From: Sedimentisphaerales bacterium
GTDB taxonomy: Bacteria > Planctomycetota > Phycisphaerae > Sedimentisphaerales > SM23-30
Direction of reading: 5' to 3'
DNA length: 34,765 bases
Assembly: GCA_016930295.1 (NCBI GenBank)
Contig: JAFGHE010000165.1
Span: 1-34,765, forward strand
The notes below the pieces were generated by a model. It was not told the DNA's origin. It ran no database searches and was given only the letters and a program-made list of their open reading frames with translations. How positions within the stretch are numbered: the stretch's first letter is position 1; every line of letters starts with the position of its first letter. This document shows positions 4,311 through 29,227 of the stretch, piece by piece. The position numbers and the translations under genes were made by a program.

Positions 4311-4399
4311 GATGCAACCGTCAAAAGTGGATATTGGCACTTAAAACCGTTGTTTTTAATTCAGAAACAAGCGTTCGCAATACTTTTGACGCCGGCGTC
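4311..4399 (+). repeat. 89-bp TIR-bearing intergenic element, copy 1
   Basis: GATGCAACCGTCAAAAGT...ACTTTTGACGCCGGCGTC; 3 differences from copy 3; no obvious target-site duplication. Confidence 0.9.
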
Positions 4400-4410
4400 C
4401 GATTTAATTT

Positions 4411-5592
4411 TCATTTTTTAATGTTTGATATTACTGGAGGTTCACCGCGATAGGCTTTTATGTTGATTTCAACATGTTGGACCCAGAGGGTATCGGGGTC
4501 GAGTTGTTCGCGGTGTTTTTGGAGGGTGTCGGGATCGGGTGGATTATTAATGGTCTGGATGATGGCACTGGCTATGGATTGTGTGTCGGATTGATTGATG
4601 CAGAGGCAGGAGTGACGGGGCAGGTCGGGATCCTGGTAGTAGTTAGGATTTTGCAGGCACACGACCGGCAGGCCGGCCAGCAGGGCTGAGTGAATGGTGG
4701 TGTTTCTCATGTCGGCGCCGCGCACGGGCAGGGTCACAAAACAGTCGGCGGCCAGCAGGCCGTTGATGATTTGCTCATCGCCGGCGTAGCCGGTCCAGGT
4801 TACCTGCCCGGGTAGGACGTGCTCGGCGATGCGGCGGCATTTATAATAATAGGCGCGCGCTCCTTTGCCGGGGCCACCCATAATTACTCCGTGCACGGGA
4901 CGACCGGTTTTACTTAATTCATGGAGAGCTTTTACGAGAACATCTATCTGGCGCCCGGGATGGATAAAGCCAAAATAAGCGATACAGAGACTCTGGTCAG
5001 GAATGTTAAACATCTTTCGGGCAGCCGCCTTTCGTTCCGGGGTGGGAGCAGGGATTTTCAGATGCGAGGCCACCGGGGCGAGGTAGATTTTATCCGGGTT
5101 TATACCCAGGTCCGCGACAGCCTGGTAATCGCGCCGGTTGGAGACCACCACCGCGTCTGATGCGTTTAATAAGGGGCGATAGCGGACGCGAAATAAGGGT
5201 CTGCCGACCGCGATATCATGCTGCATCACGACCAGCCGGATGTGAGGGGCATTTCTTTTGAGCTGCGGCCCCACGAGCGACATGGTCAGGGAGTTCCAGC
5301 CGGAATATTTAACCGATGGGTTCTGGATATGAACGATATCCGGATTCAGGTTGATTATTTTTTTACAGATACCCCCGGCTGTAAATACAGACCAGCGTTT
5401 GACCTGCGGTTGCACCTGATAATTTTGGGCCAGGTTTTTATTAACGGCCGGATCGTCCGAGGTGAGTACATTCACCTGGTAGCCACCCAGTTCGGCGGTA
5501 ATCCGGGCGATAATATCCACATGGCGCGACACACCGCAGGCAATATCAGGAAAACTGCCGGAAACAATGAGCAGGCGTTTTTGCGTTGTCAA
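4411..5592 (-). CDS. glycosyltransferase family 4 protein
   Basis: 393 aa; N-terminal LLIVSGSFPDIACGVSRHVDIIARITAELGG, mid domain HDIAVGRPLFRVRYRPLLNASDAVVVSNRRDYQAV, GT-B C-terminal features. Confidence 0.82.
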   Translation of the reverse strand: MTTQKRLLIVSGSFPDIACGVSRHVDIIARITAELGGYQVNVLTSDDPAVNKNLAQNYQVQPQVKRWSVFTAGGICKKIINLNPDIVHIQNPSVKYSGWNSLTMSLVGPQLKRNAPHIRLVVMQHDIAVGRPLFRVRYRPLLNASDAVVVSNRRDYQAVADLGINPDKIYLAPVASHLKIPAPTPERKAAARKMFNIPDQSLCIAYFGFIHPGRQIDVLVKALHELSKTGRPVHGVIMGGPGKGARAYYYKCRRIAEHVLPGQVTWTGYAGDEQIINGLLAADCFVTLPVRGADMRNTTIHSALLAGLPVVCLQNPNYYQDPDLPRHSCLCINQSDTQSIASAIIQTINNPPDPDTLQKHREQLDPDTLWVQHVEINIKAYRGEPPVISNIKK

Positions 5593-5628
5593 TACTACCT
5601 AACCTTATATGTCAGACTATACTGTTCT

Positions 5629-6048
5629 TTATTCTTTTATGCCATAGAGCGGCCGGAGTTCATCGGCACTGGGCAGATGATTATAATGTTCCCCCTTGGG
5701 TCCGACGTATCGATCTCCTTTTTTCTTCAACTGAACCGGCGTAGTGGATCCGTTCGGGTTGGTAATTATCACCTTCACGCATTCTTCGCCCGATAAAGCA
5801 TCCGTCTGCGACAGCAGAGCTCCGCCGCCGCCAATGGCCGCACCAATCCAGGCGCCGTTACAATCTTCATCCGACTGGTGACCCACGATCAGTCCCACCA
5901 GCGCCCCGGTCAGTGCGGATTCAAAAATGGGATGCAGCTTTATCTTTCCCTCTCCGCCGGCTGAACACTGGCCACAACCACCCAGAGTAACCAACATGAA
6001 ACACACTAAAACCAGTACCACTATCTTTTGAAATATCCCTTTTTGCAT
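5629..6048 (-). CDS. lipoprotein with glycine-zipper-like segment
   Basis: 139 aa; lipobox LVTLGGC; Gly-rich helical segment ALTGALVGLIVGHQSDEDCNGAWIGAAIGGGGALL. Confidence 0.75.
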   Translation of the reverse strand: MQKGIFQKIVVLVLVCFMLVTLGGCGQCSAGGEGKIKLHPIFESALTGALVGLIVGHQSDEDCNGAWIGAAIGGGGALLSQTDALSGEECVKVIITNPNGSTTPVQLKKKGDRYVGPKGEHYNHLPSADELRPLYGIKE

Positions 6049-6246
6049 TCCAGCTCTCCTACAAATCTAAAATTACGAACCGTAATCTAAAACACACCTT
6101 ACCTTTCTGAGCAGCGATTATATCCGGCCGGGCGGGAATGTCAAAAGATTATTAAAAAGGCACAAAGTGCAGGAGCTCACCCTATCTGCCTGCCCTGAAA
6201 AAGATAGATTTTGTGAGGTGGAATGTTCTGAAATTTTTAAATAAAA

Positions 6247-6277
6247 AAGCCGGACTGAATGTGTTTCAGTCCGGCTT
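6247..6277 (-). terminator. intrinsic terminator/hairpin downstream of the PEP-CTERM gene
   Basis: AAGCCGGACTGAA-tgtgt-TTCAGTCCGGCTT perfect stem; on the minus strand it is followed by a T-rich run (TTTTTTAT). Confidence 0.85.
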
Positions 6278-6300
6278 ATTATCTATTGTTATTTTTGGGT

Positions 6301-6936
6301 TTAGAGCGATCTGTGTCGTCGGAGCCAGCCGACTATTCCGACACCAATTGAGCCCAGTAACAAGGCTCCGGGGGCGGGAACAGGATTAACCAGAATAAGC
6401 TGATCCTGATGGTGTTCCAGCCCGACCTTGCCAATACCCCATAAATTCATCACACGGACATTACCCAATCCCATACCAAACCATTCACCGCCAGCCTGAA
6501 CTGCGGCGTCGGCCAACCCGACATAGTCATTGCCGTAGGTCTGTTCCTGTTCGATAAAATGGATGGCTGTCTGGACTTTGTCCCAATTGCTAAAGCGCTG
6601 GTCACCTTCCATATACTTTGTATACAAAAATGCGGACCGTTCATCAAGCGGGTCGCCGCCATATTGGGGGTCATAACCAACACCGCCGTCCACCGCCATG
6701 GTGTTCAATTCTATTTCATAGGATCTGCCGGGATTGAAATATTCATACCGCTCCAGGCAGACAGTATCAAATTTATCCCCAAGAGAGTACATACCCAGTG
6801 TAGTCTGGCCGGGATCCAAAGCCATGACCTGTGCCCGATAAACGCCGTCTTCCACCGTCATCCTGATTGTAGGATAAGCCAATACATTGGCCGACATAAT
6901 CGACAATAAAACAATCGCTCCAATAATGTTTTTCAT
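6301..6936 (-). CDS. PEP-CTERM sorting-domain exported protein
   Basis: N-terminal signal peptide [21 protein letters not shown]-terminal [26 protein letters not shown] (PxP motif, TM helix, Arg-rich tail). Confidence 0.88.
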
Positions 6937-7564
6937 TTTCTCTCCTCTTCTTATAATTGACTAAAATCAGTAAAAATCTTTCTTAATAAAACGACCATTG
7001 AAATTCAATTATTATCACAGTCATTCAATCAACTGCTATTATTTAACAAAACCTGTTCCAACAGGCATATATTCCTACAACCTATAATAATTGTTATAAC
7101 ATATGTATTCCCAAAAAATTGTGACATCGGGTGGGATTATAACAGCTTTAACGTTTATTTGAGGCAATGGCGGGTAAACATCACAATCCGTCATCAAAAC
7201 TGACTATTGAGGGTATAAGTGCTTTTATTAACAGGGTCTATGAAAAAGCTGTGTTTTCTATTGTTTTATGCCACTATGATATAGAAAATCATCGCTATTG
7301 GATTTCCCGTTGGTATCGGCAATTCCACTTCTATGATACCTGTATGCAAGTTAACAAGATATCCCGGATTCTTTAAGTGCATAACTGATATTCAGATAAA
7401 ACCGTGAATAAGGACGGCCAATAATGCCTTTAAAAATACTATTGATTTTTTAGTAACTTACTGATATAATTAGTTTTTAGTAGATGATAACCTTTGAGAG
7501 TAATTAACCGTTCTTTATGGTCTAATGATTTAATTTTTAAAGGGAGATAATAGCCTTTGCTGTA

Positions 7565-7678
7565 ATGAAACGCTGTCTCATCATGTTAGCAGTGATTACC
7601 TGTTTTTAGGTATATGCTCAGCAGGCGTGCCGTCTGTTTATGGATGATATAGCAATTCCGATATCAATCGATATGTAG
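7565..7678 (+). pseudogene. possible decayed exported-protein remnant (signal peptide interrupted by TAG)
   Basis: ATG at 7565 gives MKRCLIMLAVITCF*VYAQQACRLFMDDIAIPISIDM*. The stop at 7607-7609 splits what reads as a signal peptide with a cleavage-like VYAQQA site. Confidence 0.35.
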
Positions 7679-7977
7679 TGTAATATGCAAATTACAGTTT
7701 AATCTATGTAAAATCAAGACTGAGTTACTATCCAGGATTCAGGCAAACCGGGAAGAACTTATTTCCTATAAAAAGAAAATTAGGTCTTGAATTCTGGGTG
7801 AATTCGGTCTATCTTACATAGTGTCTTTTAAGGTTTTGAGCAAAAGTATTATAAAATCAAGCATATAACATAAATTCGTTCAATCAGTTCCAATGATCTT
7901 GTTACATAATATCTTATTCACACTGGTTGCGCGGAAAAATGTCATGAAAAGGTGGAAAATGTAGAAATTCTCGGAAA

Positions 7978-8099
7978 TAGTCCCCCGTATCCTTGGGCCT
8001 ACCAGTGCGCCTCTCTGGTAACCAAGGCATACATTGGGGACTAATATATCAGCCACCTGGGTATATTGGTTAAAACAATATGCCTTGGTGGCTTTTTTT
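7978..8099 (+). ncRNA. candidate structured RNA / transcription-attenuation leader
   Basis: Long hairpin 7978-8043 (TAGTCCCC/GGGGACTA, GTAT-CCTTGG/CCAAGG-c-ATAC, TACCAG/CTGGTA) followed by an intrinsic terminator. Segment 8021-8036 can alternatively pair with the 3' terminator arm 8076-8089. Confidence 0.6.
8051..8099 (+). terminator. rho-independent terminator
   Basis: AGCCACCTGGGTATATTG (8051-8068), loop gttaaaa, CAATATGCCTTGGTGGCT (8076-8093), then T run to 8099; 15 WC pairs, 2 G-U, 1 mismatch. Confidence 0.88.
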
Positions 8100-8110
8100 G
8101 AGTAATATCC

Positions 8111-8199
8111 GATGCCACCGTCAAAAGTGGATATTGGTATTTAAAATCGTTGTTTTTAATCCAGAAACAACCGTTCGAAATATTTTTGACGCTAGCGTC
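8111..8199 (+). repeat. 89-bp TIR-bearing intergenic element, copy 2
   Basis: Same 89-bp element, 8 differences from copy 3; flanked by the direct repeat atatcc (atatcc|GATGCC...GCGTC|atatcc). Confidence 0.9.
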
Positions 8200-8336
8200 A
8201 TATCCAAATGAGTTAATACTTGATTTTGCGCAAAAAACCATAAATAATTTATTAGCCAGAGAAATTACATGATTGTTTGCGAATAATTAAATGGGTGTAT
8301 TGCCCATCTGTTTTTAGGTTTTTAAGAGGTATGAAT

Positions 8337-10238
8337 ATGGCCGGCATAAAGAGATTTTTATATAGGCTAAATAGCAGTCTATCCGGTTTAGTCACGATAT
8401 TTGTGTTTGCCTGGTTATTCGTTGGCATTACGAGCATTTTGCCCGGTCAGATCAGGTTGCCCGACTGGCAGGGGCCGGATATAACTGAGCCGGGAAACAG
8501 CGGGGAACCGGTAGTGGGGATCGAAGGGGTGGCGCAGTATGAGCCGGTGGCAGCGGGTCAGAGATTTTTGCTGGCGGTGATCCTGAATGTGCCTGAGGGG
8601 TGGCATTTATATGCCAATCCGAAACAGGGTGAATTTGGGCAGGACACGAAAATTATTCCGCGGCCTGATCCCGGGTTTCGGTTTGGCCGGGTGATTTATC
8701 CGCCCGGTCAGGAGTATTTGGATGAGATTTCGTCCAACCATATCTATGAGGGGCAGACATTATGTTATGTTCCGATGGAAATTGACTCAGATGCTTTAAA
8801 GAGTGAGACGGGCGGCACAGTGAAGAAAGTGGTTCATCTTGATCTTGAAGGTCAACTCTGCGGTGGCAGTGGAGTCTGCCTGCCCTGGAAGGAAAAGGCA
8901 GAGATAACATTGAAGGTGACGGCTGATCCGGCCGGGGCGGTGGCGGTTCGGCCGGAATTGTACGCTTCTGTTGATCCTGCCGGCGCCTGGGTTTCAGACA
9001 GTTCGGCGATGATAATAAGCGATGATGAGATTGCACCGGATGACTGGCTTACTCCGGTGGTATTAGCTTTGGCGGCCGGATTGATAATGAACCTTATGCC
9101 GTGTGTACTGCCGTTAATACCGATTATAGTGATGACTTTGATCAAACAGTGTGCCCCGGCAGAAGGTGCTCAGCCAGAGAGGGGCAAGAGTCTCTCGATA
9201 GGGATTGCGTTTGCAGCCGGGATACTGATTGTATTTGCGGTTCTGGCAATTATCATGTCAGGCTTTCAAATGCTCTGGGGCCAGCATTTCCAGAGTAACG
9301 CCTTTAAATTTGCCTTGCTGATGGTGGTGTTTTTTTTCAGTCTGTCGATGTTTGGTGTATTTGAGATTGTTCTGCCACCGCGAATATCTAATATGTCGAT
9401 TGCGCGTAAGGGGTACGCCGGGGCGTTTGCTATGGGGATGCTGGCCACGGTGCTGGCGACCCCCTGCGGTGCGCCGCTGCTGACGCCGGTATTGGCCTGG
9501 TCGCTGGATAAGCCCACGGCGATCACGGTTACGGTATTTCTGATTATTGGCGCCGGCATGGCGATCCCTTATGTATTTTTAACGGCGTTTCCCAGGCTGC
9601 TGGCACGCATCCCCCGGGGCGGCAACTGGATGATCCGGCTCAAGCAGGCGATGGGCTTTGCCATGCTTGGTTTTTCGGCCTATTTAATCACTCGGTTTCC
9701 CAGTGCCTGGCAGGAGCCGTTATTATACTTCTGTGTGCTGGTGGGCTTTAGCGTCTGGCTGGGATTCAGTGTGGTCAATGTAAACACGCCGGCAGGTAAA
9801 CGGCGGGCCATTCGCCTGGTGGCGCTGGTGTTGATTATTGGGGCATCGGTTACGCTGGAGAGACTACCCAAGTCAGAGCCTGCCGACCTGGAAGGGGCTT
9901 ATTGGCTTGACCAGTTACACACATATCAGCAGCAAAATCAAACCGTGATTGTGAAATTCACGGCCAACTGGTGTAAGAACTGCTCCGCAATTGACAAACA
10001 TGTGTATAAGGCTCAGGCGTTCAAGGATAAACTCAAGGAGACCCATGCCCAGGTGGTGATTGCCGACTGGTCGAATCCGGATAAGGAAATAGAAAAAATG
10101 CTTAACCAGCTTGGCGGACAGGCATTACCCTTTGCCGCGGTGTTCCCGGGCAGGGATCCCGGCAATCCTGTTATTTTGCGTGATTTTTACAGTCTGGCCG
10201 ATGCTTTGAGAGCGCTGGACCAGGCGGCAGCGAGATGA
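8337..10238 (+). CDS. dsbD: DsbD-like thiol:disulfide interchange protein (N-terminal DsbD domain, multi-TM CcdA-like domain, C-terminal thioredoxin domain)
   Basis: Multi-TM region with LIMNLMPCVLPLIPIIVMTLI and ATPCGAPLLTPVL; C-terminal thioredoxin-like VIVKFTANWCKNCSAIDKHVY. The ORF opens at 8277 in the track; ATG 8337 preceded by AAGAGG is the likelier start. Confidence 0.92.
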   Translation: MAGIKRFLYRLNSSLSGLVTIFVFAWLFVGITSILPGQIRLPDWQGPDITEPGNSGEPVVGIEGVAQYEPVAAGQRFLLAVILNVPEGWHLYANPKQGEFGQDTKIIPRPDPGFRFGRVIYPPGQEYLDEISSNHIYEGQTLCYVPMEIDSDALKSETGGTVKKVVHLDLEGQLCGGSGVCLPWKEKAEITLKVTADPAGAVAVRPELYASVDPAGAWVSDSSAMIISDDEIAPDDWLTPVVLALAAGLIMNLMPCVLPLIPIIVMTLIKQCAPAEGAQPERGKSLSIGIAFAAGILIVFAVLAIIMSGFQMLWGQHFQSNAFKFALLMVVFFFSLSMFGVFEIVLPPRISNMSIARKGYAGAFAMGMLATVLATPCGAPLLTPVLAWSLDKPTAITVTVFLIIGAGMAIPYVFLTAFPRLLARIPRGGNWMIRLKQAMGFAMLGFSAYLITRFPSAWQEPLLYFCVLVGFSVWLGFSVVNVNTPAGKRRAIRLVALVLIIGASVTLERLPKSEPADLEGAYWLDQLHTYQQQNQTVIVKFTANWCKNCSAIDKHVYKAQAFKDKLKETHAQVVIADWSNPDKEIEKMLNQLGGQALPFAAVFPGRDPGNPVILRDFYSLADALRALDQAAAR

Positions 10239-10360
10239 ATTTAGACACTGATTTACTGAGAGCGTTCGAACCGGAACCGAATAATTTTAAATGTGAGATT
10301 TGTTATTTGAGAATAAAATTAATCACTGAATTCTAATATAAATTGAGGGACTAAAAGATA

Positions 10361-10576
10361 ATGGTATTGGCGGATGGATCACCAGGTGATATTACGGAAA
10401 AGGATAAACAGAGGGCGCAACGGTGTCTGACCTGTCCGGTATGTAAGCGGGCCCGGCAAAAACAGAAGGGAGCGGCATTCTGGTTTATAAAATTTATCGA
10501 GAGTGGTCTTTGCCCGTATTGCAAGGCCTATGAGAAAGTGTATGGTCGCAAGGCCCATGAGTCGATTCCGGAATGA
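10361..10576 (+). CDS. small double-CxxC (zinc-ribbon-like) protein, 71 aa
   Basis: CLTCPVCKRARQKQKGAAFWFIKFIESGLCPYCKAYEKVYGRKAHE; two cysteine pairs about 30 aa apart. Confidence 0.65.
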   Translation: MVLADGSPGDITEKDKQRAQRCLTCPVCKRARQKQKGAAFWFIKFIESGLCPYCKAYEKVYGRKAHESIPE

Positions 10577-10821
10577 CTGTATTAAAGTATAAGTTGTCGT
10601 TTTAATCGTCAGAGATTCTCTATTTTAACACGGGGTTTTTATTTTTTTCTGTCCGGCACACATGACAGACTGAATTACAGATAATTTTTATGGCCAGTCG
10701 GATATTTTAGGTTATAATGATATTTTGCAGGATGCTCATCAGTAGCAGCGGCTATTAATATAATTCAGACATCAAAACACGTTAACCATATTTCGTTAAG
10801 CAAGATTTGGAGGATGAGAAA

Positions 10822-11478
10822 ATGTCACAGGTCAATAATTACGTTATGAAGCATGTCCTGGATATCCTGGAGAACAGTCATTTTACGAGTGCCTGTTTTG
10901 AGGTCACCTTTCCGCCGGAGGGTGATACGCTGATTGATATAGCGTTTATCGATTATCCGGAGTTTTATTTCCGGGTGGATATAAAGGACACGGAGTATAA
11001 TTACGATTTCGTGCCGGCGTATGTGTTCAAGCAGGAGAATGACACAGTGAGCGATTTTGACATTGTGTTCGATCGTCTGGACGCGTGGACGACGAACGTG
11101 CGTCATGAGTTGTTGTCGCTGGGTCCGGTGCAGCATGAGTTTCAGGGTCAGAAGAATTCGTTCAACAAGATTATCAATGAGGAATTTGATGATCCGGAGG
11201 AACTGTTCAGCCGGCATGATATTGAAGAGCTGCATGCCCGTCTGGACGAACTGGCTGAAGAGTGCCGGGCGTTGCACCATGGGGGTGAATTCAATCTGGA
11301 GGAACTAAATGAGCTGGAAAGCACCATAGCGGCCCTGCAGGAAGATGCCCGGTATTTTTCGCGAAAGACCTGGTATCGCACGGCCGGCAACAAGCTCATC
11401 AGCCTGGCCGCCCGGCTGGCGTCTTCGCAGCCAGGCCAGCGTCTGCTGACCGAAGGGGCGAAGAAGCTGTTTGAGTGA
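10822..11478 (+). CDS. hypothetical protein, charged C-terminal half
   Basis: ATG at 10822 (MSQVNNYVMKHV) with GGAGG at 10809-10813 at good spacing; the track start at 10807 is an upstream TTG lying over the Shine-Dalgarno sequence. Confidence 0.8.
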   Translation: MSQVNNYVMKHVLDILENSHFTSACFEVTFPPEGDTLIDIAFIDYPEFYFRVDIKDTEYNYDFVPAYVFKQENDTVSDFDIVFDRLDAWTTNVRHELLSLGPVQHEFQGQKNSFNKIINEEFDDPEELFSRHDIEELHARLDELAEECRALHHGGEFNLEELNELESTIAALQEDARYFSRKTWYRTAGNKLISLAARLASSQPGQRLLTEGAKKLFE

Positions 11479-11731
11479 TTTGAAGAAGTTACAAAGGCAC
11501 AGGGGTACACAGGCACAAAGCAGGGAGTCTGTGCGTTTGCCCTGAGAATGTCATTTATATAATACCCTCGTTTAAGCACGGCCGACACGGCCGTGATACA
11601 CTTTCGTGAAATGGTATCTATGCCGCCCGGATATTTTTGTATTTTAATTTTTGGGTTTTTGGGTTATAAAGTAATTTCATAGAATCGAATGCGATTCGTA
11701 TAATACTGCGAATTCAGGAAATGATCTGTAT

Positions 11732-12442
11732 ATGGATAATGGGCTGCGAGAATTACAGAAGGCTCATGACAGAACGTGGGCGTGTAATCTGGGGATGGGG
11801 AAGGAAGAGCAGGGGAATATCGAGGTGAATCTGGCGTTTCTGGAACGGGTAAAATTATTAAGGCAGGACCATGATATTCTGGAGATTGGTTGTGGGATCG
11901 GCATACTTACGAATATGCTCACGCGGCGAGGGTACCGCATAAAAGGAACGGATATTGCCACGGAGGCAATCAAGTACGGGCGGGTGAAATATCCGGGGGC
12001 TGATCTGGAGGTGCAGGCCGGGGAGTCTTTGTCTTTTGCGGATGGTTCGTTTGATATGGTGATAAGTTTTGATGCGCTGGAGCATATTTTTAATGTGGAC
12101 GCTCATTTGGATGAGGTGTATCGGGTGCTGCGTGATAACGGGTATTACCTGCTGGCGACGCCGAATAAATACATCAGTGCCCCTTATGATACGATTAAGA
12201 GCCGGGGTTTTGGCTGGAAGTGGTCTCATCCCTCGCTGCAATCGTGGCACGAGTTACAACATACACTGCGCCGGCATGGTTTTAGCTGCGAATTTTTCAA
12301 GATGAACAGTATCACTGACTTTACCATGCGGAAATTGCGCCGGCTGGGTTTTCTGGCCCGGCTGTTAAAACATATTGATACGTCCCGGCTGCCGCTGTGG
12401 CTGCAGACGAACTTCTATGTGGTGGCGCAGAAGGATAATTGA
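11732..12442 (+). CDS. class I SAM-dependent methyltransferase
   Basis: Motif I DILEIGCGIGILTNMLTRRGYRIKGTDIA; ISFDALEHI; VLRDNGYYLLATPN. Confidence 0.9.
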   Translation: MDNGLRELQKAHDRTWACNLGMGKEEQGNIEVNLAFLERVKLLRQDHDILEIGCGIGILTNMLTRRGYRIKGTDIATEAIKYGRVKYPGADLEVQAGESLSFADGSFDMVISFDALEHIFNVDAHLDEVYRVLRDNGYYLLATPNKYISAPYDTIKSRGFGWKWSHPSLQSWHELQHTLRRHGFSCEFFKMNSITDFTMRKLRRLGFLARLLKHIDTSRLPLWLQTNFYVVAQKDN

Positions 12443-12497
12443 TACTATAAACACTATTATCGAGTAACTTGATTTCTGTTAGGTGAAGGACAATATT

Positions 12498-12593
12498 GTG
12501 GCTGAAACTGATATAAAAGAAATTACCGAACGACTGGGGAAGCTGGAGAAACAGAATCGTACTATACATTTTTCATTGTTATACTATGCGTGA
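12498..12593 (+). pseudogene. short truncated coiled-coil/TM protein remnant (31 aa)
   Basis: AGGTGAAGGA Shine-Dalgarno then GTG: VAETDIKEITERLGKLEKQNRTIHFSLLYYA*; stops at the start of a hydrophobic stretch. Confidence 0.4.
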
Positions 12594-12654
12594 TAATACT
12601 CTATGATGTAATCCGTTTCAAGATATACAGACTTATTCATGAAGATCCCCGTCA

Positions 12655-12978
12655 TTGCTGCTGACAAAGCTTGACACAGAAAGATGGTTGGAAGGGAAAG
12701 CCATGGCAGGCACCATCGCCACGTGTTTGCGGAGATATGCCGAGGAGAACGGCGAGTCAGGCCATTATGGAGATAATACCCCACCCTTGGAAGAGATGGG
12801 TTTAGAGGATGGAGACTTTGAGGATTCGTATTTCCCTGCTTCGCATTTCAGTTGGGTGACCAACTACAATCTCGAGACCGATAAAATGGATTTTCAGATT
12901 AAGATAAAACAGCCAATGTATGTCAGGCCGCCGTACTGGATACTACATTCTGACGGAACATGGGAAGAAGGCATTTGA
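12655..12978 (+). pseudogene. type IV pilin/pseudopilin-like C-terminal remnant lacking the N-terminal prepilin helix
   Basis: DTERWLEGKAMAGTIATCLRRYAEENGESG...FEDSYFPASHFSWVTNYNLETDKMDFQIKIKQ...YWILHSDGTWEEG resembles planctomycete prepilin-type proteins downstream of the methylation helix. No GFTLxE-like N-terminus is found upstream; there is an in-frame stop at 12640. Confidence 0.5.
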
Positions 12979-13104
12979 GAGTAAAGAGATTGAGAGAAAA
13001 ATTATTGATTTTTCCTTAAAAATATTTTCTGTTTACTTTTGGTGGGTGGATGGTAATAATCCTGTGAGTGAATTTAATTAGTATTATGAATGTATGATTT
13101 GATT

Positions 13105-13827: not shown

Positions 13828-13848
13828 CATGAACTAAATTTACGAGGT

Positions 13849-16013: not shown

Positions 16014-16195
16014 TACCAGTGCCGGCTAAATATTCCTGTGGTTGACTATGAAGGTTCATCATGCTATACTTGCAACCATAAAGTTAGATTTTCAAACTGG
16101 TTATTTTAAGACAATAATTACTTTTACCGAATGTAGTTATAATGGTTCTTCGTATTTTATAGTTCCGATAACCTTACCTGGAAAGATATGATTTT

Positions 16196-19640: not shown

Positions 19641-19679
19641 TTTGCTTTTACAATCGGACCGGACCGTGAGGATGAATCT

Positions 19680-20819
19680 ATGAAACTATTGATGATCGAT
19701 TATGAATTTCCTCCCATTGGGGGTGGCGCGGCGCGCGCTCACTTCCATCTATTGCAGGAGTTGGCGACATGGGACGATTTGCATATCGATGTTATCACCA
19801 GCGGTCTGGACAAGGGGTTGCATACGGAAGATTTTTCCGAGACCATCCGGATCCATCGAGTGGGGATTCGAAAAAAGAATCTGCATTATTGGCGTAAGCT
19901 GGAGGTGGTGGAATGGCTATATAAGGCCCAGCGGCATTACCGGCAATTGATCAGTGAAAATAGTTATGATCTGATTCATTTCTTTTTTGGTTTTCCCACC
20001 TGGTGGCGCAGCAGTAAAGAGATACGCAGGATACCGCATGTTATTACACTGTGGGGTTCGGATGTGCCTGGTTTCAATGTCCGGTTACGGCTGGATTACC
20101 TGCTTCTGGCCCCCTTTTTCCGGAAGCGCTGGCGCGGTGCGGCCGGGGTAGTGGCCAACAGTGAAGGGCTGCGTCGCCTGGCGCTGAAATTTATGCCTGA
20201 CATACACATTGATGTCATCCCCAACGGGATTGATACCGTGATGTTTTCGCCGCCCCGGCGGCGTGACTATGCGGCGCCGCTGAAACTGTTGTCGGCCAGC
20301 CGGCTCATCAGTCGCAAGCGTCTGGATATACTGATCCGGGCCGTAGCGCAGGGACTTGAAAGTGGTCTGGATGTGCAACTGACACTGGCGGGTGAAGGAG
20401 ACCTGCTGGCGGAACTGCGTCAACTGGCAGATGACCTGCAGGTTTCGGAACGGGTCCAGTTTCTGGGACGGATTCCGCTGGAAGACATGCCGGAAATCTA
20501 TCGCGGGCATGACATTTTTCTTATGAGCAGCGCCCATGAAGGGATGAGTTGTGCCATGCTGGAATCAATGGCGGCCGGGCTGCCGCTGGTGACCAGTTCC
20601 TGTGAGGGCGTGGACGAACTGATTAACGATAATGGTATTATTGTCTCGGATCCTACTCCGGAAGCCTTTCTCAAAGCTCTGAAAGATTTGGCCGGGAACC
20701 CCGAACGGTGCCGCCAGATGGCCCAGGCGGCCCGGCGTCAGGCGGAAAAATTCAGTTGGCATAATGCCGCCCGGCAGTATTTTGAGTATTATCAGAAGGT
20801 AATCGATCACTCAGATTAG
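19680..20819 (+). CDS. glycosyltransferase family 4 protein
   Basis: MKLLMIDYEFPPIGGGAARAHFHLLQELA...VIPNGIDTVMF...EDMPEIYRGHDIFLMSSAHEGMSCAMLESMAAGLPLVTSSCEGVDELI. Confidence 0.95.
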   Translation: MKLLMIDYEFPPIGGGAARAHFHLLQELATWDDLHIDVITSGLDKGLHTEDFSETIRIHRVGIRKKNLHYWRKLEVVEWLYKAQRHYRQLISENSYDLIHFFFGFPTWWRSSKEIRRIPHVITLWGSDVPGFNVRLRLDYLLLAPFFRKRWRGAAGVVANSEGLRRLALKFMPDIHIDVIPNGIDTVMFSPPRRRDYAAPLKLLSASRLISRKRLDILIRAVAQGLESGLDVQLTLAGEGDLLAELRQLADDLQVSERVQFLGRIPLEDMPEIYRGHDIFLMSSAHEGMSCAMLESMAAGLPLVTSSCEGVDELINDNGIIVSDPTPEAFLKALKDLAGNPERCRQMAQAARRQAEKFSWHNAARQYFEYYQKVIDHSD

Positions 20820-20861
20820 CCAGGCATAAAGGCCCAGGGGTATAAAGATACATAGTTAAAA

Positions 20862-21968
20862 ATGACAATAAAACCTGTGAAAATCTGTTTTGTGGCTCCC
20901 AAGGCGTATCCGCTGTTTAATCCGGAGTGTAGCGGTGTGTTTGGCGGCTCGGAGGTGGATTTATATTATCTGGCCACCGAGCTGGCCCGCGACGAGGGAT
21001 TTGAGGTTAGTTTTGTGACGGCGGATTATGGCCAGGAGCAGAGCCTGTTTATTAAGCGGGTGAAAATTATTAAAAGTGTGGATTTTTCTCAAAATGCCTT
21101 ACGCGGCGCCCGGCGGGTCTGGCGGGCCTTAAAACAGGCGGATGCGGATATTTATATGATTAAAAACGCATCCCTGGGGATGTTTCTCTGCGCGTTGTTC
21201 TGCCGGTGGCACAGAAGAATATTTTTATATCGTTCCGCCCATACGGATCAATGTGACGGCACGTATCTGAAGGAGCATCCGGTGGAGGGGTATTTTTTTA
21301 AATGGTCCTTACGCCGGGCGGAGAAGGTTTTTGTACAGAATCAGACGGATATTGAGAATCTCCAGCGCACCGTGGGGGTACCGTCGATCATGATTCCCAA
21401 CGGCCATCAGCTGGAGGAATTAACTCACATTCCACGTGATACGATTCTGTGGGTAGGTCGCAGTGTGGGATTCAAGCAGGCGCACCTGTTTGTCGAACTG
21501 GCCCGGGCGTTGCCTGATAAACATTTTACCATGATTTGCCAGCGGGCCACGGACGACAGCAATTATGATACGTTTTGCCGGTATGCGCAGGAGGTGGACA
21601 ACCTGGAGTTTATGGACCGGGTTCCATTCGCTCAGGTGGACCGTTATTTTCAGAGAGCCAGGATTTTTGTTAATACCAGCCGGGCGGAGGGATTTCCCAA
21701 TACCTTTATCCAGGCCGGCAGGGCCGGGACTGCGATTTTATCGTTAACGGTGGATCCCGATGGAATGCTATCGGAATATGAATGTGGTGTATGCTGCCAT
21801 GGCGACCAGGGGCATCTGGCCGAAGCGCTAACCTCAATGCTGGAGAATGACCGCTACCTGGAGATGGGCCGGAACGCCAGAGGCTATGTGGAAGCACACC
21901 ATGATGTCAGTAAAATTATCAATGACTATAAAACTATATTTCATCAGTTGGTCCAGACATCTGTTTAA
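20862..21968 (+). CDS. glycosyltransferase family 4 protein
   Basis: KICFVAPKAYPLFNPECSGVFGGSEVDLYYLATELARDEGFEV...VNTSRAEGFPNTFIQAGRAGTAILSLTVDPDGML. Confidence 0.9.
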   Translation: MTIKPVKICFVAPKAYPLFNPECSGVFGGSEVDLYYLATELARDEGFEVSFVTADYGQEQSLFIKRVKIIKSVDFSQNALRGARRVWRALKQADADIYMIKNASLGMFLCALFCRWHRRIFLYRSAHTDQCDGTYLKEHPVEGYFFKWSLRRAEKVFVQNQTDIENLQRTVGVPSIMIPNGHQLEELTHIPRDTILWVGRSVGFKQAHLFVELARALPDKHFTMICQRATDDSNYDTFCRYAQEVDNLEFMDRVPFAQVDRYFQRARIFVNTSRAEGFPNTFIQAGRAGTAILSLTVDPDGMLSEYECGVCCHGDQGHLAEALTSMLENDRYLEMGRNARGYVEAHHDVSKIINDYKTIFHQLVQTSV

Positions 21969-22080
21969 AATGTCTTACCGCAGTAATAAGTAAACGTCAC
22001 GTGGAGTATCCCGCGTTTCAGCATGCCAAGATTTACGGGAATATTAATACCTCTGGCTCATGGCGCCAAAGTTCAGTCCT

Positions 22081-22830
22081 TCAATATTTGACCCATTGGA
22101 GGCTCAGGCCGTTAGCGGGTGCTTTGTGGCCGGCAGCGCGGCGGGTGTGAGCGGCGAGGATGTCGGGAATACCGTCGGGGGATAATCGGCCGCGCCCGAC
22201 CTCGAGTAAGGTCCCCACGATATTGCGTACCATGTTATAGAGGAACCCGTTTCCTTCGACATCGACATAGAGGTAATGGCCGGTGCGCCAGACGCGGCAT
22301 TGATAAATCGTGCGTACCGTGTTTTTTTCCTTATTACCGGCATCCATGGAAGAGAAACTGGCAAAATCGTGTTCGCCCACCAGGTCGAGCGCTGCCACAC
22401 GCATCAACTGTTCATCGCAGGGGTGATAATAATGGCAACAGTATCGGATCTCTTTAATAGGAATCTCGGCGTGGTTGAAAACCGCGTAGCGGTAGAGCTT
22501 GCTTTTAGCAGAGGCAATGGCGTCGAAGTCGTCGGGCACATCCTGGGATTGTAACGCGCAGATGTCGGCGGGCAGAAATTTATTGATGACCCGGTAAACT
22601 TTTTCGGTGGGAATGGGGGTATTGGTCATGAAGTTGGCGACCTGCCCGGCGGCATGGACGCCGGCGTCGGTACGACCGGAACCGCGCAGATTTACCTGCT
22701 CGCCCAGGGCCCTGGCAATCGCTTCCTCCAGAGCCTGCTGGATGGTCATCAGGCCCTCTTTCTGCCGCTGCCAGCCATGATAATCGGTGCCGTCGTAACT
22801 GATGGTCAGTTTTATATTACGTGGGGACAT
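22081..22830 (-). CDS. truA: tRNA pseudouridine(38-40) synthase TruA
   Basis: LTISYDGTDYHGWQRQ, GSGRTDAGVHAAGQVANF, EGNGFLYNMVRNIVGTLLEVGRGRL. Confidence 0.96.
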   Translation of the reverse strand: MSPRNIKLTISYDGTDYHGWQRQKEGLMTIQQALEEAIARALGEQVNLRGSGRTDAGVHAAGQVANFMTNTPIPTEKVYRVINKFLPADICALQSQDVPDDFDAIASAKSKLYRYAVFNHAEIPIKEIRYCCHYYHPCDEQLMRVAALDLVGEHDFASFSSMDAGNKEKNTVRTIYQCRVWRTGHYLYVDVEGNGFLYNMVRNIVGTLLEVGRGRLSPDGIPDILAAHTRRAAGHKAPANGLSLQWVKY

Positions 22831-22922
22831 TGTACTATTCGGATCCTACACCTCTCCCTATCGACATCGGCAAAGGTGCCACCCAATTTTATGTTAGTTA
22901 ATCCGATGTTTAAAACAAAATC

Positions 22923-22964
22923 ACCCCCAAGCCTATTCCGTTATCACAAAATCCGCCTGGGGGC
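22923..22964 (-). terminator. possible terminator of asd
   Basis: On the minus strand GCCCCCAGGC...GGCTTGGGGG followed by TGATTTTGTTTT; located just 3' of asd. Confidence 0.45.
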
Positions 22965-22987
22965 GTCATCGTGTTTTATATTTATAT

Positions 22988-23989
22988 TTATACCAGATGT
23001 TCGGCGATCTGGATGGCGTTGAGGGCGGCGCCTTTGCGTAGCTGGTCGCCGGCGACGAAGATGTTGATGCCGCGGTTATCCGGCAGTGACTCGTCGCGCC
23101 GGATGCGCCCCACGAGGATATCATCCTGGCCGGTGGCGTCCATGGGCATGGGGAAATAATTGTTTTCCCAGTCGTCCACCACGGTTACGCCGGGCGCCTG
23201 ATGGAGCAGGTCCACTACTTCATCCACGTCGATGGGGTTGGCAAATTCCAGGTTGATGCTCTCACAATGGGCCCGCAGGACCGGCACGCGGATACAGGTG
23301 GCGGTAATGACGATGGAGTCATCGTTAAATATTTTGTGGGTCTCATGGACCAGTTTCATTTCTTCCACGTTGTAGCCGTTTTCGCCGATTTTGCTGTCGT
23401 GACTGAACACGTTAAAAGCGCAGGGATGCTGGAACGCCTGGGGTTGTGGTTCCTTGCCGTCGAGGACATCTTTGATCTGATGTTTGAGTTCCTCCATGGC
23501 CTTCCAGCCGGCGCCGCTGACCGCCTGATAGGTACTGACCACCATGCGCCTGACCGGGTTGGCCTGATGGAGGGGCCAGACCGGCACAATTCCGATAATG
23601 GTCGAACAATTCGGGTTGGCGATGATGCCTTTACTGGTGTGGATGGCCTCCGGGTTAATCTCGGGGATCACCAGCGGGACATCTGCGTCCATGCGGAACG
23701 CAGAAGAATTATCCACCATGGTACATCCGGCCGCGGTGACAGCGGGTCCGAACTTTTTGCTGATGGAACCGCCGGCACTAAAAAGGGCAATATCCATATC
23801 TTTAAAGCTGTCTTCTGTCAATTCTTCAATAGTATATTCCTTACCCGCCAGGGTTACTTTTTTGCCGGCCGAACGAGATGAAGCCAGCATCTTATAGTCC
23901 GTAGCGGGGAAACTCCGCTGTTCCAGAATACTTAAAAACTCCTGACCGACCGCACCGGTCACACCGGCGATTGCTACTCTAAGCGACAT
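22988..23989 (-). CDS. asd: aspartate-semialdehyde dehydrogenase
   Basis: VAIAGVTGAVGQEFLSILEQRSFP, LFSAGGSISKKF, VDNSSAFRMDADVPLVIPEINPEAI, IIANPNCSTI. Confidence 0.96.
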   Translation of the reverse strand: MSLRVAIAGVTGAVGQEFLSILEQRSFPATDYKMLASSRSAGKKVTLAGKEYTIEELTEDSFKDMDIALFSAGGSISKKFGPAVTAAGCTMVDNSSAFRMDADVPLVIPEINPEAIHTSKGIIANPNCSTIIGIVPVWPLHQANPVRRMVVSTYQAVSGAGWKAMEELKHQIKDVLDGKEPQPQAFQHPCAFNVFSHDSKIGENGYNVEEMKLVHETHKIFNDDSIVITATCIRVPVLRAHCESINLEFANPIDVDEVVDLLHQAPGVTVVDDWENNYFPMPMDATGQDDILVGRIRRDESLPDNRGINIFVAGDQLRKGAALNAIQIAEHLV

Positions 23990-24304
23990 AACCAGTTACC
24001 TTTCTTATAGTTAACAAACTCCTGCAAAATATTATATTATCCAGCTCTCTGTCCAGTACAAAGATTCTGGTTCTTCTGCCGGGTTGGTACGATGGAGACA
24101 GATATCCCCCGCCAACACACCGGAATTTTAGAGTATATCATTTATGTAGGATAATGCAAGTCGGAAGTATGTTAAAAAATCCGCCATATTATTTTTTACT
24201 ATGCTCCGGTCGGCTGCTTGTGTTATAGTTTGTTTCGGTTCACGCTAATATAGCGGCCAGTAAAAAAATTACGGATTTAATTTTGCTTTCCGAGGAGACC
24301 TGTT

Positions 24305-26290
24305 ATGAAATTATATGCAAATATAACGTTCATGTGCCTGTTTGGGGCTTTGCTGGTGGGTCAGGCGCCCGGAGGGTCTTCTTATACGCTGAAATCACCT
24401 GACGGGAAAGTAACGGTTCAGATTGATTATCAGGTTCAGTTGAAGTATTCGGTTCGTTATCAGGATCAAGACATAATAGCTGATTGTCCCATATCCATGA
24501 GTCTTTCCGGGGGAACGGTGCTGGGCCGGCAGTGCCAACTGAGCGATCTTAAAGAACGAGAGATTCAGGAGACCATAACGCCGGTAGTGCCGGAGAAACG
24601 CAGCAGGATTATCAATCACGGCCGGGAAGTGTCGCTTTTGTTTAAAGGCGACTATGGGGTAATTTTCCGGGCTTATAATGATGGGGTGGCATATCGTTTC
24701 ATTACGGAGTTTGAAGAACCTGTTACAATAGTATCGGAGCAGGCCACGTTTAGGTTTGTTGATGATTTTTACCTGTTTCATCCGGAGCCCCAGGAGGGAT
24801 TTATGGGCAGTTGTGAAAAGCCTTATGTATATGAAAAGATATCGGAATTTCCCCCGGGCATGCTTTCGTTTATGCCGGTGCTGGTCGAGATTCCCGGGGG
24901 GGTGAAGGTGGCTATTACGGAGGCTGATTTGACAGACTATGCGGGTTTATGGCTGACACGGCACGGGGAGCACGAAACGACGCTGACAGGAATGTTCCCA
25001 CCCTATCCGGCGAAGGAGAAGCCGGAAGGCGGTCGTTATATAGTTGTGGAGGAGCCGGCTGATTATATTGCACGGACCAGGGGGAATCGATCGTTTCCAT
25101 GGCGGATCATTGCGATGGCGGTCCGGGACGGGGACCTGATAGAAACGGACATTGTGTTTCGACTGAGCGACGCGCAGGTGCTGGAGGATACCTCCTGGAT
25201 CAGGCCGGGCAAGGTGGCCTGGGACTGGTGGAATGCGTTGAATATCTGGGGCGTGGATTTTGAGGCCGGGATCAATACCGCGACGTACAAATATTACATT
25301 GATTTTGCCTCTGAGAATAATATTGAATATATCATCCTGGATGCCGGGTGGTCTGACGAGCATGACCTGCTGAAAATCAATCCTGACATCAATCTGGCGG
25401 AACTTATCCGTTACGGCAACGAAAAGAATGTCGGTCTTATCCTCTGGTGCGTGTGGCATGCGATGGATAAACAGATGGATAAGGTAATGCCGATTTATGA
25501 AAAATGGGGAATCAAGGGTGTAAAGGTGGATTTTATGGACCGGGACGACCAGAAGGTGGTGCAGTTCTATCATCGCTGTGTCAAGACGGCGGCCCGTTAT
25601 CATCTGCTGGTGGATATGCACGGAGCGTATAAGCCGGCCGGGCTGCGCCGGATGTATCCTAACCTGGTAACGCGTGAGGGTGTGATGGGGCTGGAATACA
25701 ATAAATGGTCGAACCTGGCAGATCCGGAATATGCGGTCACGGCCCCGTTTATCCGTATGCTGGCCGGACCCATGGATTATACACCCGGGGCCATGAATAA
25801 CGCCCAGCGAGATAACTTCCGTATTATTCACACCCGACCCATGAGCCAGGGAACGCGTGCCCATCAGATGGCCGAATATGTGGTGTTTGAAAGCCCTTTG
25901 CAAATGCTCAGCGATACGCCCACGTCGTATCGAGAGAATCCGGGATGTCTCTCGTTTCTTTCCCGGGTGCCTACTGTCTGGGATGAAACCATAGCGCTGG
26001 ATGCGAAAGTGGCTGATTACGTGCTGGCGGCGCGGCGTAAAGGGCAGGACTGGTATGTGGGCGCTATGACAGACTGGAGCAGCCGGGAAATCACAATTGA
26101 CTTTTCCTTTCTGGGTAAGGGTAAGGGTAAGGGTAATTATAACGCTGATATCATTGCGGATGGTCCCAATGCTCACAAAATCGGAATTGACCACAAGCAT
26201 GAAACCCGGCAGGTCACCTCGAATACCCGGCTAACAGTTAAACTGGCGCCGGGGGGCGGCTGGGTGGCTCGGATTACACCGGTGAAATAG
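24305..26290 (+). CDS. glycoside hydrolase family 97 (SusB-like alpha-glycosidase)
   Basis: Signal peptide; SPDGKVTVQIDYQVQLKYSVRYQDQDII; KVAWDWWNALNIWGVDFEAGINTATYKYYIDFASENNIEYIILDAGWSD; VDMHGAYKPAGLRRMYPNLVTREGVMGLEYNKWS. Confidence 0.95.
   Translation: MKLYANITFMCLFGALLVGQAPGGSSYTLKSPDGKVTVQIDYQVQLKYSVRYQDQDIIADCPISMSLSGGTVLGRQCQLSDLKEREIQETITPVVPEKRSRIINHGREVSLLFKGDYGVIFRAYNDGVAYRFITEFEEPVTIVSEQATFRFVDDFYLFHPEPQEGFMGSCEKPYVYEKISEFPPGMLSFMPVLVEIPGGVKVAITEADLTDYAGLWLTRHGEHETTLTGMFPPYPAKEKPEGGRYIVVEEPADYIARTRGNRSFPWRIIAMAVRDGDLIETDIVFRLSDAQVLEDTSWIRPGKVAWDWWNALNIWGVDFEAGINTATYKYYIDFASENNIEYIILDAGWSDEHDLLKINPDINLAELIRYGNEKNVGLILWCVWHAMDKQMDKVMPIYEKWGIKGVKVDFMDRDDQKVVQFYHRCVKTAARYHLLVDMHGAYKPAGLRRMYPNLVTREGVMGLEYNKWSNLADPEYAVTAPFIRMLAGPMDYTPGAMNNAQRDNFRIIHTRPMSQGTRAHQMAEYVVFESPLQMLSDTPTSYRENPGCLSFLSRVPTVWDETIALDAKVADYVLAARRKGQDWYVGAMTDWSSREITIDFSFLGKGKGKGNYNADIIADGPNAHKIGIDHKHETRQVTSNTRLTVKLAPGGGWVARITPVK
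26110..26136 (+). repeat. hexanucleotide tandem repeat (gggtaa)x4 inside the GH97 gene
   Basis: ctgggtaagggtaagggtaagggtaat encodes L-G-K-G-K-G-K-G-N. Confidence 0.85.
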
Positions 26291-26329
26291 AAAAAAATTG
26301 TATAGTGAAATACCTGTCAGAGGGCATCG

Positions 26330-28114
26330 ATGTCCAGTTTGATCAAAAAAAAGGTTCCCAAAAACTTAGTCAGCCAGTTTTTATGTTTAAGTGGGGTAAT
26401 CCTGGGTGCATCGGCCTTGGCGCTGGAATTTGGATTCAAGGCCGATCTGATACCACCAGTTATTCTTTATACCTTCGAAGTTTTGGCGGTATTGCTGTTA
26501 TGGGCCGGCAAAGTACAGGAGTGGCGGAGTCTGCCCCGACGGGAATTCAATTGGCGCAAACCGTTTCTTGATATATTACTTATAGTGTTTCTTTTATTTA
26601 GTATCTTCCTGTTACCCTTGATCATTAAACCGCAGGCTGACTCGATGCGAATCCCCTGGCTGGCATTCAAAATCTACCTGCTGGTTCGTATTGTAATTTA
26701 CATGGGCCGATTTAGTGTGAGAGTGACCGCTTCCGGGCGCGGGCCCACACATGTACTGCTGGTCAGTTTTGTTCTAATTATTCTGATTGGTGCAATCCTG
26801 CTGATGTTACCTTCGGCCAACCAGGGACGGACCTTGGGATTTACAGACGCGGTATTTACCTCTACCAGCGCCACGTGTGTTACCGGTCTGATCGTGCGTG
26901 ATACGGGTTCGGAATTTACAGTACTGGGCCAGACAATTATCCTGTTCCTGATGCAGATCGGCGGGCTGGGGATCATGATCTTCGGCGCTTTGTTTGCTTT
27001 GCTGTTAGGCAGCCCCCTGTCACTGCGCGAATCCATCGCCATGCGCGACATTATGAATGAGCAGTCGCCGGGCCGGATCGGGCGTATCGTGGTGTTTATC
27101 ATTATAGTGACCGTCTTGATGGAAGGATTGGGCGTTCTGGGTTTGTATGGCATATGGTCGGAGAATCCGGAGATGCCGATTGAGAATGCATATCGTTTTA
27201 ATCAGTTTTTTTACAGTATCTTTCATTCGGTCAGTGCGTTTTGTAATGCCGGATTTTCATTGCAGTCTGACAGTTTGTCATCCTATCGAACCTGTTGGCA
27301 GATCTATCTGATTGTCTGTCCTCTGATTATCATGGGAGGGCTGGGATTCCCGGTGCTGAATAATTTATGGTCCCTTTTATGGAAGCGTCTGGCCAAACGG
27401 TTAAAAATAAATAAGCCTGTATCATCACCTGTAAAGCTTACCTTACACAGCCGGCTGGCGTTATGGACGACGGGATGTCTGCTGCTGTTTGGATTTCTTA
27501 TGCTCATGTTTTTAGAATTACTGCGAGAGGATAATAACGGCGACTTTTCTGTAATCAATCTGCTGGACAGTTTATTTAATTCGATAACGGCACGAACGGC
27601 CGGTTTTAACACAGTTGAGATCAGACAGTTAGGTGCCGGCTCCAAACTGGTATTGATCCTGCTGATGTGCATTGGCGGCTCACCCAGTTCCACGGCCGGT
27701 GGGGTCAAGACCGTAACCTTTGCGGTGATGGTTCTGGCGATTTACACAACGATCCGGCGCCAGCGCGACGTGGTGATTTTCCAGCGTTCCATCCCGATCA
27801 TGATTGTCCGGCGGGTGGCAACGCTGATTATGCTTTACGGGCTTACCCTGTGGATGGCAACCCTGCTGCTGACTATTACTGAGCACAGTCAGGGTACGGA
27901 TATGCTGGACCTGCTGTTTGAAGCGGCCTCGGCCCTGGGCACGGTGGGATTATCCACCGGAGTGACGGCCCAATTGTCCCTGGCAGGTAAATGGGTTATT
28001 ATTGTAACCATGTTTGTGGGGCGCCTGGGCCCGCTGAGTCTGCTGGCGGCGCTGACCTTCAACGCCCGACCGGCACGCTATGATTACCCAAAAGAACCAC
28101 TGGTCGTGGGATAA
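26330..28114 (+). CDS. TrkH/KtrB-family potassium uptake membrane subunit
   Basis: TDAVFTSTSATCVTGLIVRDTGSEFTVLGQTIILFLMQIGGLGIM; MCIGGSPSSTAGGVKTVTFAVM; FEAASALGTVGLSTGVT (selectivity-loop motifs). Confidence 0.95.
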   Translation: MSSLIKKKVPKNLVSQFLCLSGVILGASALALEFGFKADLIPPVILYTFEVLAVLLLWAGKVQEWRSLPRREFNWRKPFLDILLIVFLLFSIFLLPLIIKPQADSMRIPWLAFKIYLLVRIVIYMGRFSVRVTASGRGPTHVLLVSFVLIILIGAILLMLPSANQGRTLGFTDAVFTSTSATCVTGLIVRDTGSEFTVLGQTIILFLMQIGGLGIMIFGALFALLLGSPLSLRESIAMRDIMNEQSPGRIGRIVVFIIIVTVLMEGLGVLGLYGIWSENPEMPIENAYRFNQFFYSIFHSVSAFCNAGFSLQSDSLSSYRTCWQIYLIVCPLIIMGGLGFPVLNNLWSLLWKRLAKRLKINKPVSSPVKLTLHSRLALWTTGCLLLFGFLMLMFLELLREDNNGDFSVINLLDSLFNSITARTAGFNTVEIRQLGAGSKLVLILLMCIGGSPSSTAGGVKTVTFAVMVLAIYTTIRRQRDVVIFQRSIPIMIVRRVATLIMLYGLTLWMATLLLTITEHSQGTDMLDLLFEAASALGTVGLSTGVTAQLSLAGKWVIIVTMFVGRLGPLSLLAALTFNARPARYDYPKEPLVVG

Positions 28115-28142
28115 TCGACATGTTATAATGTGGCCAAAGATG

Positions 28143-28231
28143 GATGCCACCGTCAAAAGTGGATATTGGCACTTAAAACCGTTGTTTTTAATCCAGAAAC
28201 AAACGTTCGCAATACTTTTGACGCCGGCGTC
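28143..28231 (+). repeat. 89-bp TIR-bearing intergenic element, copy 3
   Basis: GATGCCACCGTCAAAAGT...ACTTTTGACGCCGGCGTC; flanking direct repeat agatg(g). Confidence 0.92.
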
Positions 28232-28271
28232 AGATGGACTTTAATTATATGATTGATGAGGAGTAGATATT

Positions 28272-28952
28272 ATGCTTCGTTTTGCCGTGATCGGACTGGG
28301 TCGATTTGGCGCGCAACTGGCCCGCTCCTTAACCCGCAGTGGCGTGGAAGTTATCGCTATCGACAAGGATCAGAAAATCATTGATCAGATCGCTCCGGAC
28401 GTTACGATGGCGGTGCGTCTGGATTCCACGGAGGATGAGGCTCTGCGTGCCCAGGGTGTGGACAAGGTGGATGCGGTTATTATCGGGATCGGCCAGGATT
28501 TTGAGGCGAATGTCCTGACCACGGTTACGGTGAAATCACTGGGTGTGAAACATATCTGTGCCCGGGCTGACAGCGCAATGCACGGTAAGATTCTGCGCCG
28601 AATTGGAGCGGATGAGATTATCTATCCGGAAGATGAGAGCGCCCTGCGCTGGTCGTTCAAGCTGACGGCGCCCCAGATTGGAGAGAAGCTGGAGTTTGCC
28701 CCGGGTTTCAGTCTGGGGCAATATTCCGCCCCGGCCAGCTTCGCGGGCAAGACGGTCAAAGAGCTGAACCTGCGCAAAAAATATCATGTCAATCTCATCA
28801 GCCTGCGCCGGTCCGACACACCGGTCCAGGACGGCAAAAAGGTGGCGCGGGAAGTGATCAACGTGCCTTTGCCGGATACGGTTATTAATGAAGGTGATAT
28901 ACTCTGGCTGGTGGGCTCCGATGAAAACCTCAGTGCTTTGCCGATGAAATAA
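28272..28952 (+). CDS. TrkA/KtrA-family NAD-binding K+ transport regulator (RCK_N + RCK_C)
   Basis: FAVIGLGRFGAQLARSLTRSGVEVIAIDKDQKIID; FSLGQYSAPASFAGKTVKELNLRKKYHVNLISLRR. Confidence 0.95.
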   Translation: MLRFAVIGLGRFGAQLARSLTRSGVEVIAIDKDQKIIDQIAPDVTMAVRLDSTEDEALRAQGVDKVDAVIIGIGQDFEANVLTTVTVKSLGVKHICARADSAMHGKILRRIGADEIIYPEDESALRWSFKLTAPQIGEKLEFAPGFSLGQYSAPASFAGKTVKELNLRKKYHVNLISLRRSDTPVQDGKKVAREVINVPLPDTVINEGDILWLVGSDENLSALPMK

Positions 28953-29006
28953 ATCTATATAACAGGAGAATCTGACATAACGGATCGTTTTGACAAGGTA
29001 TATATG

Positions 29007-29095
29007 GATGCCACCGTCAAAAGTGGATATTGGCACTTAAAACCGTTGTTATTAATCCAGAAACAAACGTTCACAATACTTTTGACGCTGGCGTC
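29007..29095 (+). repeat. 89-bp TIR-bearing intergenic element, copy 4
   Basis: 3 differences from copy 3; flanking direct repeat tatatg (tatatg|GATGCC...GCGTC|tatatg). Confidence 0.92.
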
Positions 29096-29227
29096 TATAT
29101 GAGAAAGTTGTGCGTTGTGAGTGCGCGGTTGTATTTGTTTTTATGAATAAGAAAATAATAAAAAATCACTTAAAAATATATCGTTATAAGTAGCTAAAGG
29201 CGTTTTTTATCAGGTGGAGTTATTGTT

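Follow-up and report, generated by a model that had tools for sequence, protein, structure and literature searches.

A gene-less 89-bp transposon family with 6-bp target duplications in a Sedimentisphaerales genome, and its possible IS1182-like partner

Results

Copies of the repeat in the window and across the genome

The 89-bp repeat of a Sedimentisphaerales bacterium (Planctomycetota) is very probably a gene-less, non-autonomous DNA transposon (MITE), given its terminal inverted repeats (TIRs), the 6-bp target duplications around it, its approximately 200 dispersed copies, and the presence in another genome of a related full-length insertion sequence (IS) with the same TIR. A non-autonomous mobile element had been among the suggestions of a first-pass annotation of this DNA, and these same features bear that suggestion out. 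The host genome is a MAG of 4.23 Mb in 329 contigs, the single genome of its genus among those compared, and the window, i.e. the whole 34,765-bp stretch of DNA from which the analysis started, is one of its contigs.

Four copies lie in the window (Table 1). Re-measurement reproduced exactly the coordinates, the 89-bp length and the 91-97% identity to copy 3 given by the first-pass annotation (96.6, 91.0, 100 and 96.6% for copies 1 to 4), and the 18-bp imperfect inverted repeats at the ends are present as it described. The neighbouring genes also agree with an intergenic position for all four: copy 1 has the side of the UDPGP gene, along with a short ORF, on one flank and a glycosyltransferase gene on the other, copy 2 is upstream of dsbD, copy 3 separates trkH from trkA, and copy 4 lies between trkA and a VipA/VipB gene. 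The last of these (29228-30778) is one ORF of 516 aa that fuses VipA- and VipB-like T6SS sheath domains (Pfam T6SS_VipA, VipB). Duplications that had gone unmentioned flank three of the four copies, while the flanks of copy 1 have no duplication that can be recognised.

Table 1. Positions of the repeat copies, their target-site duplications and the terminal inverted repeats of one example copy in the window.
Feature	Position	Strand	Remarks
MITE copy 1	4311..4399	+	subfamily A, 89 bp; without clear target duplication
MITE copy 2	8111..8199	+	subfamily A, 89 bp
MITE copy 3	28143..28231	+	subfamily A, 89 bp
MITE copy 4	29007..29095	+	subfamily A, 89 bp
Target-site duplication ATATCC, copy 2	left 8105..8110, right 8200..8205	.	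read directly
Target-site duplication AGATG, copy 3	left 28138..28142, right 28232..28236	.	read directly
Target-site duplication TATATG, copy 4	left 29001..29006, right 29096..29101	.	read directly
Left terminal inverted repeat, copy 3 as example	28143..28160	+	GATGCCACCGTCAAAAGT
Right terminal inverted repeat, copy 3 as example	28214..28231	+	ACTTTTGACGCCGGCGTC

The repeat is far beyond chance: its left-end 20-mer has 83 exact matches in the host genome (none for the reversed control), and 40 of 40 scored candidate copies have E values of 1e-33 or lower. Allowing up to two mismatches, the left end has 187 matches in the genome, 87 forward and 100 reverse. There is accordingly no orientation bias, and the common orientation noted earlier holds for the four window copies, which are all on the plus strand, but not as a rule for the family. 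Copy density was estimated in a content-blind sample of 0.88 Mb, comprising the first 80 contigs with at most 20 kb from each, and only these unselected contigs were used because some later contigs were picked for holding copies. The sample contains 41 paired copies, which extrapolates to approximately 196 per genome. The description as a four-copy family is thus correct for the window and far too low for the genome, where the repeat is not confined to four copies but present in about 200.

The full collected set comprises 106 paired copies, no two of which are identical in sequence. All measure 88-92 bp, with 84 at exactly 89 bp, and none has coding capacity. Clustering separates them into subfamilies A (86 copies), B (13) and C (7), which have common ends and unlike interiors. 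Subfamily A, to which the window copies belong, has a mean pairwise identity of 87%, and in subfamily C, with copies of 91-92 bp, a GC-rich hairpin replaces that of subfamily B.

Terminal inverted repeats

Imperfect TIRs of 18 bp are found at both ends of all 106 paired copies. In an alignment of 64 copies, positions 1-18 pair with positions 72-89, with pairing kept in 34 to 64 of the copies; TIR position 8 is the exception, with a mismatch in almost every copy. The TIR core CGTCAAAAGT and the near-constant length are common to the three subfamilies and to families in other genera, whose interiors are unrelated. Such families, with the same core, nearly the same length and other interiors, were found in four genomes (G004, G008, G007 and G072), the pattern matching 8 times forward and 10 times reverse in G004. 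Of 397 genomes of the class, 15 contain the single-end motif, which reaches very high counts in the host and in several related genomes. The sole match in IMG/VR (L298) was rejected as a MITE copy, being a chimeric palindrome located where a phage contig ends.

In seven MITE copies or fragments, drawn from different subfamilies, the right TIR contains a 23-nt palindromic insert, TGTCTCATCCCGATTCATCGGGG or a near variant, always at one and the same position (L070 ~14398, L075 ~15245, L085 ~5461, L117 ~221, L119 ~7998, L134 ~1686 and L206 ~5586). As duplications of 5-6 bp lie outside the extended end in five of the seven, either a 108-112-bp form also moves, or the insert repeatedly enters one site.

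Target duplications and target preference

Exact target duplications flank 76 of the 106 paired copies, and are predominantly of 6 bp (59 copies), with 5 bp in 12 and 7 bp in 5; in a control with mispaired flanks, a 6-bp duplication appears in 0.45%. The duplications are AT-rich (25% GC versus 48% for the sampled sequence). One copy is nested inside the remnant of another element, with the duplication ATACCC. Counting outward from the element, A is strongly over-represented at +16/+17 in both flanks (48-57 of 76; p from 1e-8 to 1e-14), and this tendency is present in both subfamily groups. The target is therefore symmetric, TT-N9-[6 bp]-N9-AA, as would be expected of a dimeric complex that contacts both flanks.

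Transposase-bearing relatives

The first-pass annotation had proposed a search for a transposase ORF bounded by the same TIRs. One exists in a relative, Sedimentisphaerales bacterium CSMAG_2489 (G022), of the same order as the host, whereas no complete transposase-bearing element with the TIR of the MITE was found in the host assembly. The G022 element is a complete IS of 1,895 bp with GATGCTGGCGTCAAAAGT and GATGCCTGCGTCAAAAGT at its ends and one ORF of 576 aa filling the space between them, so that it has the single ORF between TIRs that characterises the IS1182 family. Its product carries the DDE_Tnp_1_6 domain (E 1.4e-13, 51.7 bits, above the cut-off of 25.1) and is nearest to NCBIfam transpos_IS1182, the best family by far (E 2.8e-38), at a score of 132 bits that is below the NCBIfam cut-off of 270. 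Plasmid relatives of this transposase are less than 60% identical, and no such TIR was found in two other genomes with relatives of it (L294 and L295). In one of these, a Planctomicrobium MAG (L294), the IS1182-like transposase relative is, by eye, apparently cut or trailed by group II intron-like sequence at ~2650-2900.

The TIR of the longer elements, GAYGC...GCGTCAAAAGT, is the same as that of the MITE. Because a contig end cuts the right flank of the complete IS copy in G022, long-element ends from G022 and from a further genome, G001, were compared as sets. At length 6, a reverse-complement partner was found for 17 of 27 ends in G022 (shuffles: mean 6.4, maximum 15) and for 38 of 52 ends in G001 (shuffles: mean 13.5, maximum 28), with no excess of partners at length 5 or 7 in either set. 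The long elements of these two genomes therefore also make 6-bp duplications. In small samples, they favour AA at +11/+12 and AAnnTT duplications, unlike the host MITEs. Contig ends in G022, G072 and G001 (e.g. L212, L223 and L232) also show a second type of long element, multi-copy and again with this TIR. It ends in a GCTCAGGC...GCTGAGC hairpin at the 3' end and is unassembled in at least three genomes; a search with its visible C-terminal 35 aa gave no useful match.

The long element of the host

Four host contigs (C51, C128, C297 and C207) break off after 22-86 bp of a longer element whose 18-bp left end is that of the MITE and whose interior is different, unlike both the G022 element and the second element type. 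Such breaks would be expected for a multi-copy element that exceeds the assembler's word in length. In the host there seem to be no fewer than four unassembled copies of what is likely an IS1182-like IS. The G022 transposase, used as a query, had no match in the host, whose sole DDE_Tnp_1_6 gene is a remnant that lacks the TIR. An apparent hflX, named from its N-terminal protein sequence, is interrupted at the end of C128 (L191:7630-7715) by a long element of the same TIR family; the second half of hflX, or its GTP-bdg_M domain, was sought in order to reach the right end of the element and is not in the host bin. Beside one long-element end, degenerate short direct repeats (ccctaactccactc) resemble a tandem array (L091:110-260).

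Gene context, orientation and fold

Copies avoid genes, as a check of gene context suggested by the first-pass annotation makes clear: 5 of 106 lie inside ORFs, though ORFs, called by a simple greedy choice, make up 87% of the sequence. Relative to tandem genes, 31 copies have the same orientation and 29 the opposite one, and the gene contexts of copies differ little from those of intergenic DNA overall, so that nothing points to a role as terminator or promoter. The interior of subfamily A has no significant fold (z -0.24), and that of subfamily C folds significantly through its hairpin (z -3.6). RNAalifold returned no consensus pairs for the 64-copy alignment, and with 20 rows the TIR stem plus short internal helices. 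An Rfam search with the repeat gave no match, and thus no catalogued family to which it could be assigned.

Discussion

Which transposase moves the copies

If the repeat is a MITE, longer elements that share its TIR would provide a DDE transposase in trans. This enzyme would recognise both MITE ends and excise or copy the element, whose insertion at a staggered cut in intergenic, AT-rich DNA would leave the 6-bp duplication. The likely supplier would be an IS1182-like IS, and G022 contains an intact relative of such an IS. We infer that the long element of the host encodes an IS1182-like transposase and moves the 89-bp copies, an identification made indirectly because the interior of that element is absent from the bin. 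On balance we favour an IS1182-like partner, although the target spacing of the host MITEs (+16/+17) differs from that of the G022 and G001 long elements (+11/+12), which argues against it.

The same difference in spacing would fit a transposase of another family, such as that of the second element type, which shares the TIR; the interior of the host long element, distinct from both known types, is likewise compatible with this. Against another family stand the facts that the sole transposase seen between such TIRs is IS1182-like and that the visible C-terminus of the second type is without a useful match, and we regard a different transposase as a credible but less probable source of movement than an IS1182-like one. 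With similar reserve, the TIR could tentatively be taken as the mark of a separate, undescribed IS1182-like subgroup in Sedimentisphaerales, with strict 6-bp duplications, a symmetric target, and 88-92-bp MITEs that keep their length and ends across genera while their interiors are replaced, so that length would be constrained by the transposition machinery.

Readings other than transposition

A REP-like palindrome, or a structured RNA or regulatory element acting in transcription ending, mRNA stability or regulation of neighbours, would account for the intergenic sites, for TIRs able to fold into a long hairpin, and for the two copies in the trkH-trkA region. We consider it very unlikely given the even orientation and ordinary contexts of the copies, interiors that vary by subfamily and lack a significant fold in subfamily A, the lack of an Rfam match, and target duplications, which mean insertion. 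The REP-like or structured repeat offered as an alternative in the first-pass annotation is thereby set aside, as is a REP/BIME assignment, the element being too long for a REP and having two TIRs. Sites of the attC-like kind do not fit dispersed copies with 6-bp duplications, and Tn3-derived miniature elements fit neither the TIR nor the duplication length. The many host contigs that end at copies might seem to suggest that the repeat spread through recombination or gene conversion, or that it is an artefact of assembly, but repeats break assemblies in any case, and with all 106 paired copies distinct and 76 exact duplications of 5-7 bp that differ in sequence, these origins are hardly conceivable.

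Comparison with known elements

MITEs of IS1182 elements are already known, and the host family is likely a further example, with a likely IS1182-like partner. MITEPye1 of Paracoccus yeei is an IS1182-type MITE with 18-bp TIRs and mostly intergenic sites (PMC11578231); the host family is alike in these respects, in lacking genes and in being credited to an IS1182-like transposase, but it makes 6-bp instead of 4-bp duplications and has about 200 copies, compared with 1-3 per chromosome. The ISMac2-derived MITEs of Methanosarcina acetivorans (PMC3852290) are also gene-less, TIR-bounded and credited to IS1182-like transposases, but are longer (160/169 bp versus 89 bp) and fewer (7-14 copies versus about 200). 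The IS1182 family itself is heterogeneous, and its member IS1272 replaces palindromes instead of duplicating the target (PMC5678879). The G022 element resembles the family in its one ORF between TIRs and its nearest transposase match, and departs from it in a score under the NCBIfam cut-off and in a 6-bp duplication where some members replace palindromes.

The terminal sequences of the classical bacterial MITEs RUP, NEMIS, ERIC and Nezha are unrelated to those of the host MITE. These non-coding elements of 70-300 bp, with TIRs of 15-30 bp (PMC3733652), are similar to it in size range, TIRs, lack of coding capacity and proximity to genes, and differ in their partner IS families. REPs, 20-40 bp long, have a GTAG or CGTC tag at one unpaired end, and their associated transposases, if any, are of the tyrosine (HUH) type (PMC3733652). 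Like them, the host element is palindromic, intergenic and of high copy number, and its TIR also contains the string CGTC, probably by coincidence; unlike them, it is 89 bp long, has two TIRs, duplicates its target and has no one-ended tagged hairpin.

Significance

Within the literature collection searched, no paper paired Sedimentisphaerales with transposases. The family accounts for a high-copy repeat in a bacterial order about which little is known, along with one cause of fragmented assemblies, and ties that repeat to a transposon lineage across several related genera. As a MITE family it is well supported and fairly ordinary mobile DNA, with no pointer to a new kind of system. Its most unusual properties are a fixed length over unrelated interiors and a sharp, symmetric target preference, which together make it a useful natural data set on how a DDE transposase measures its substrate.
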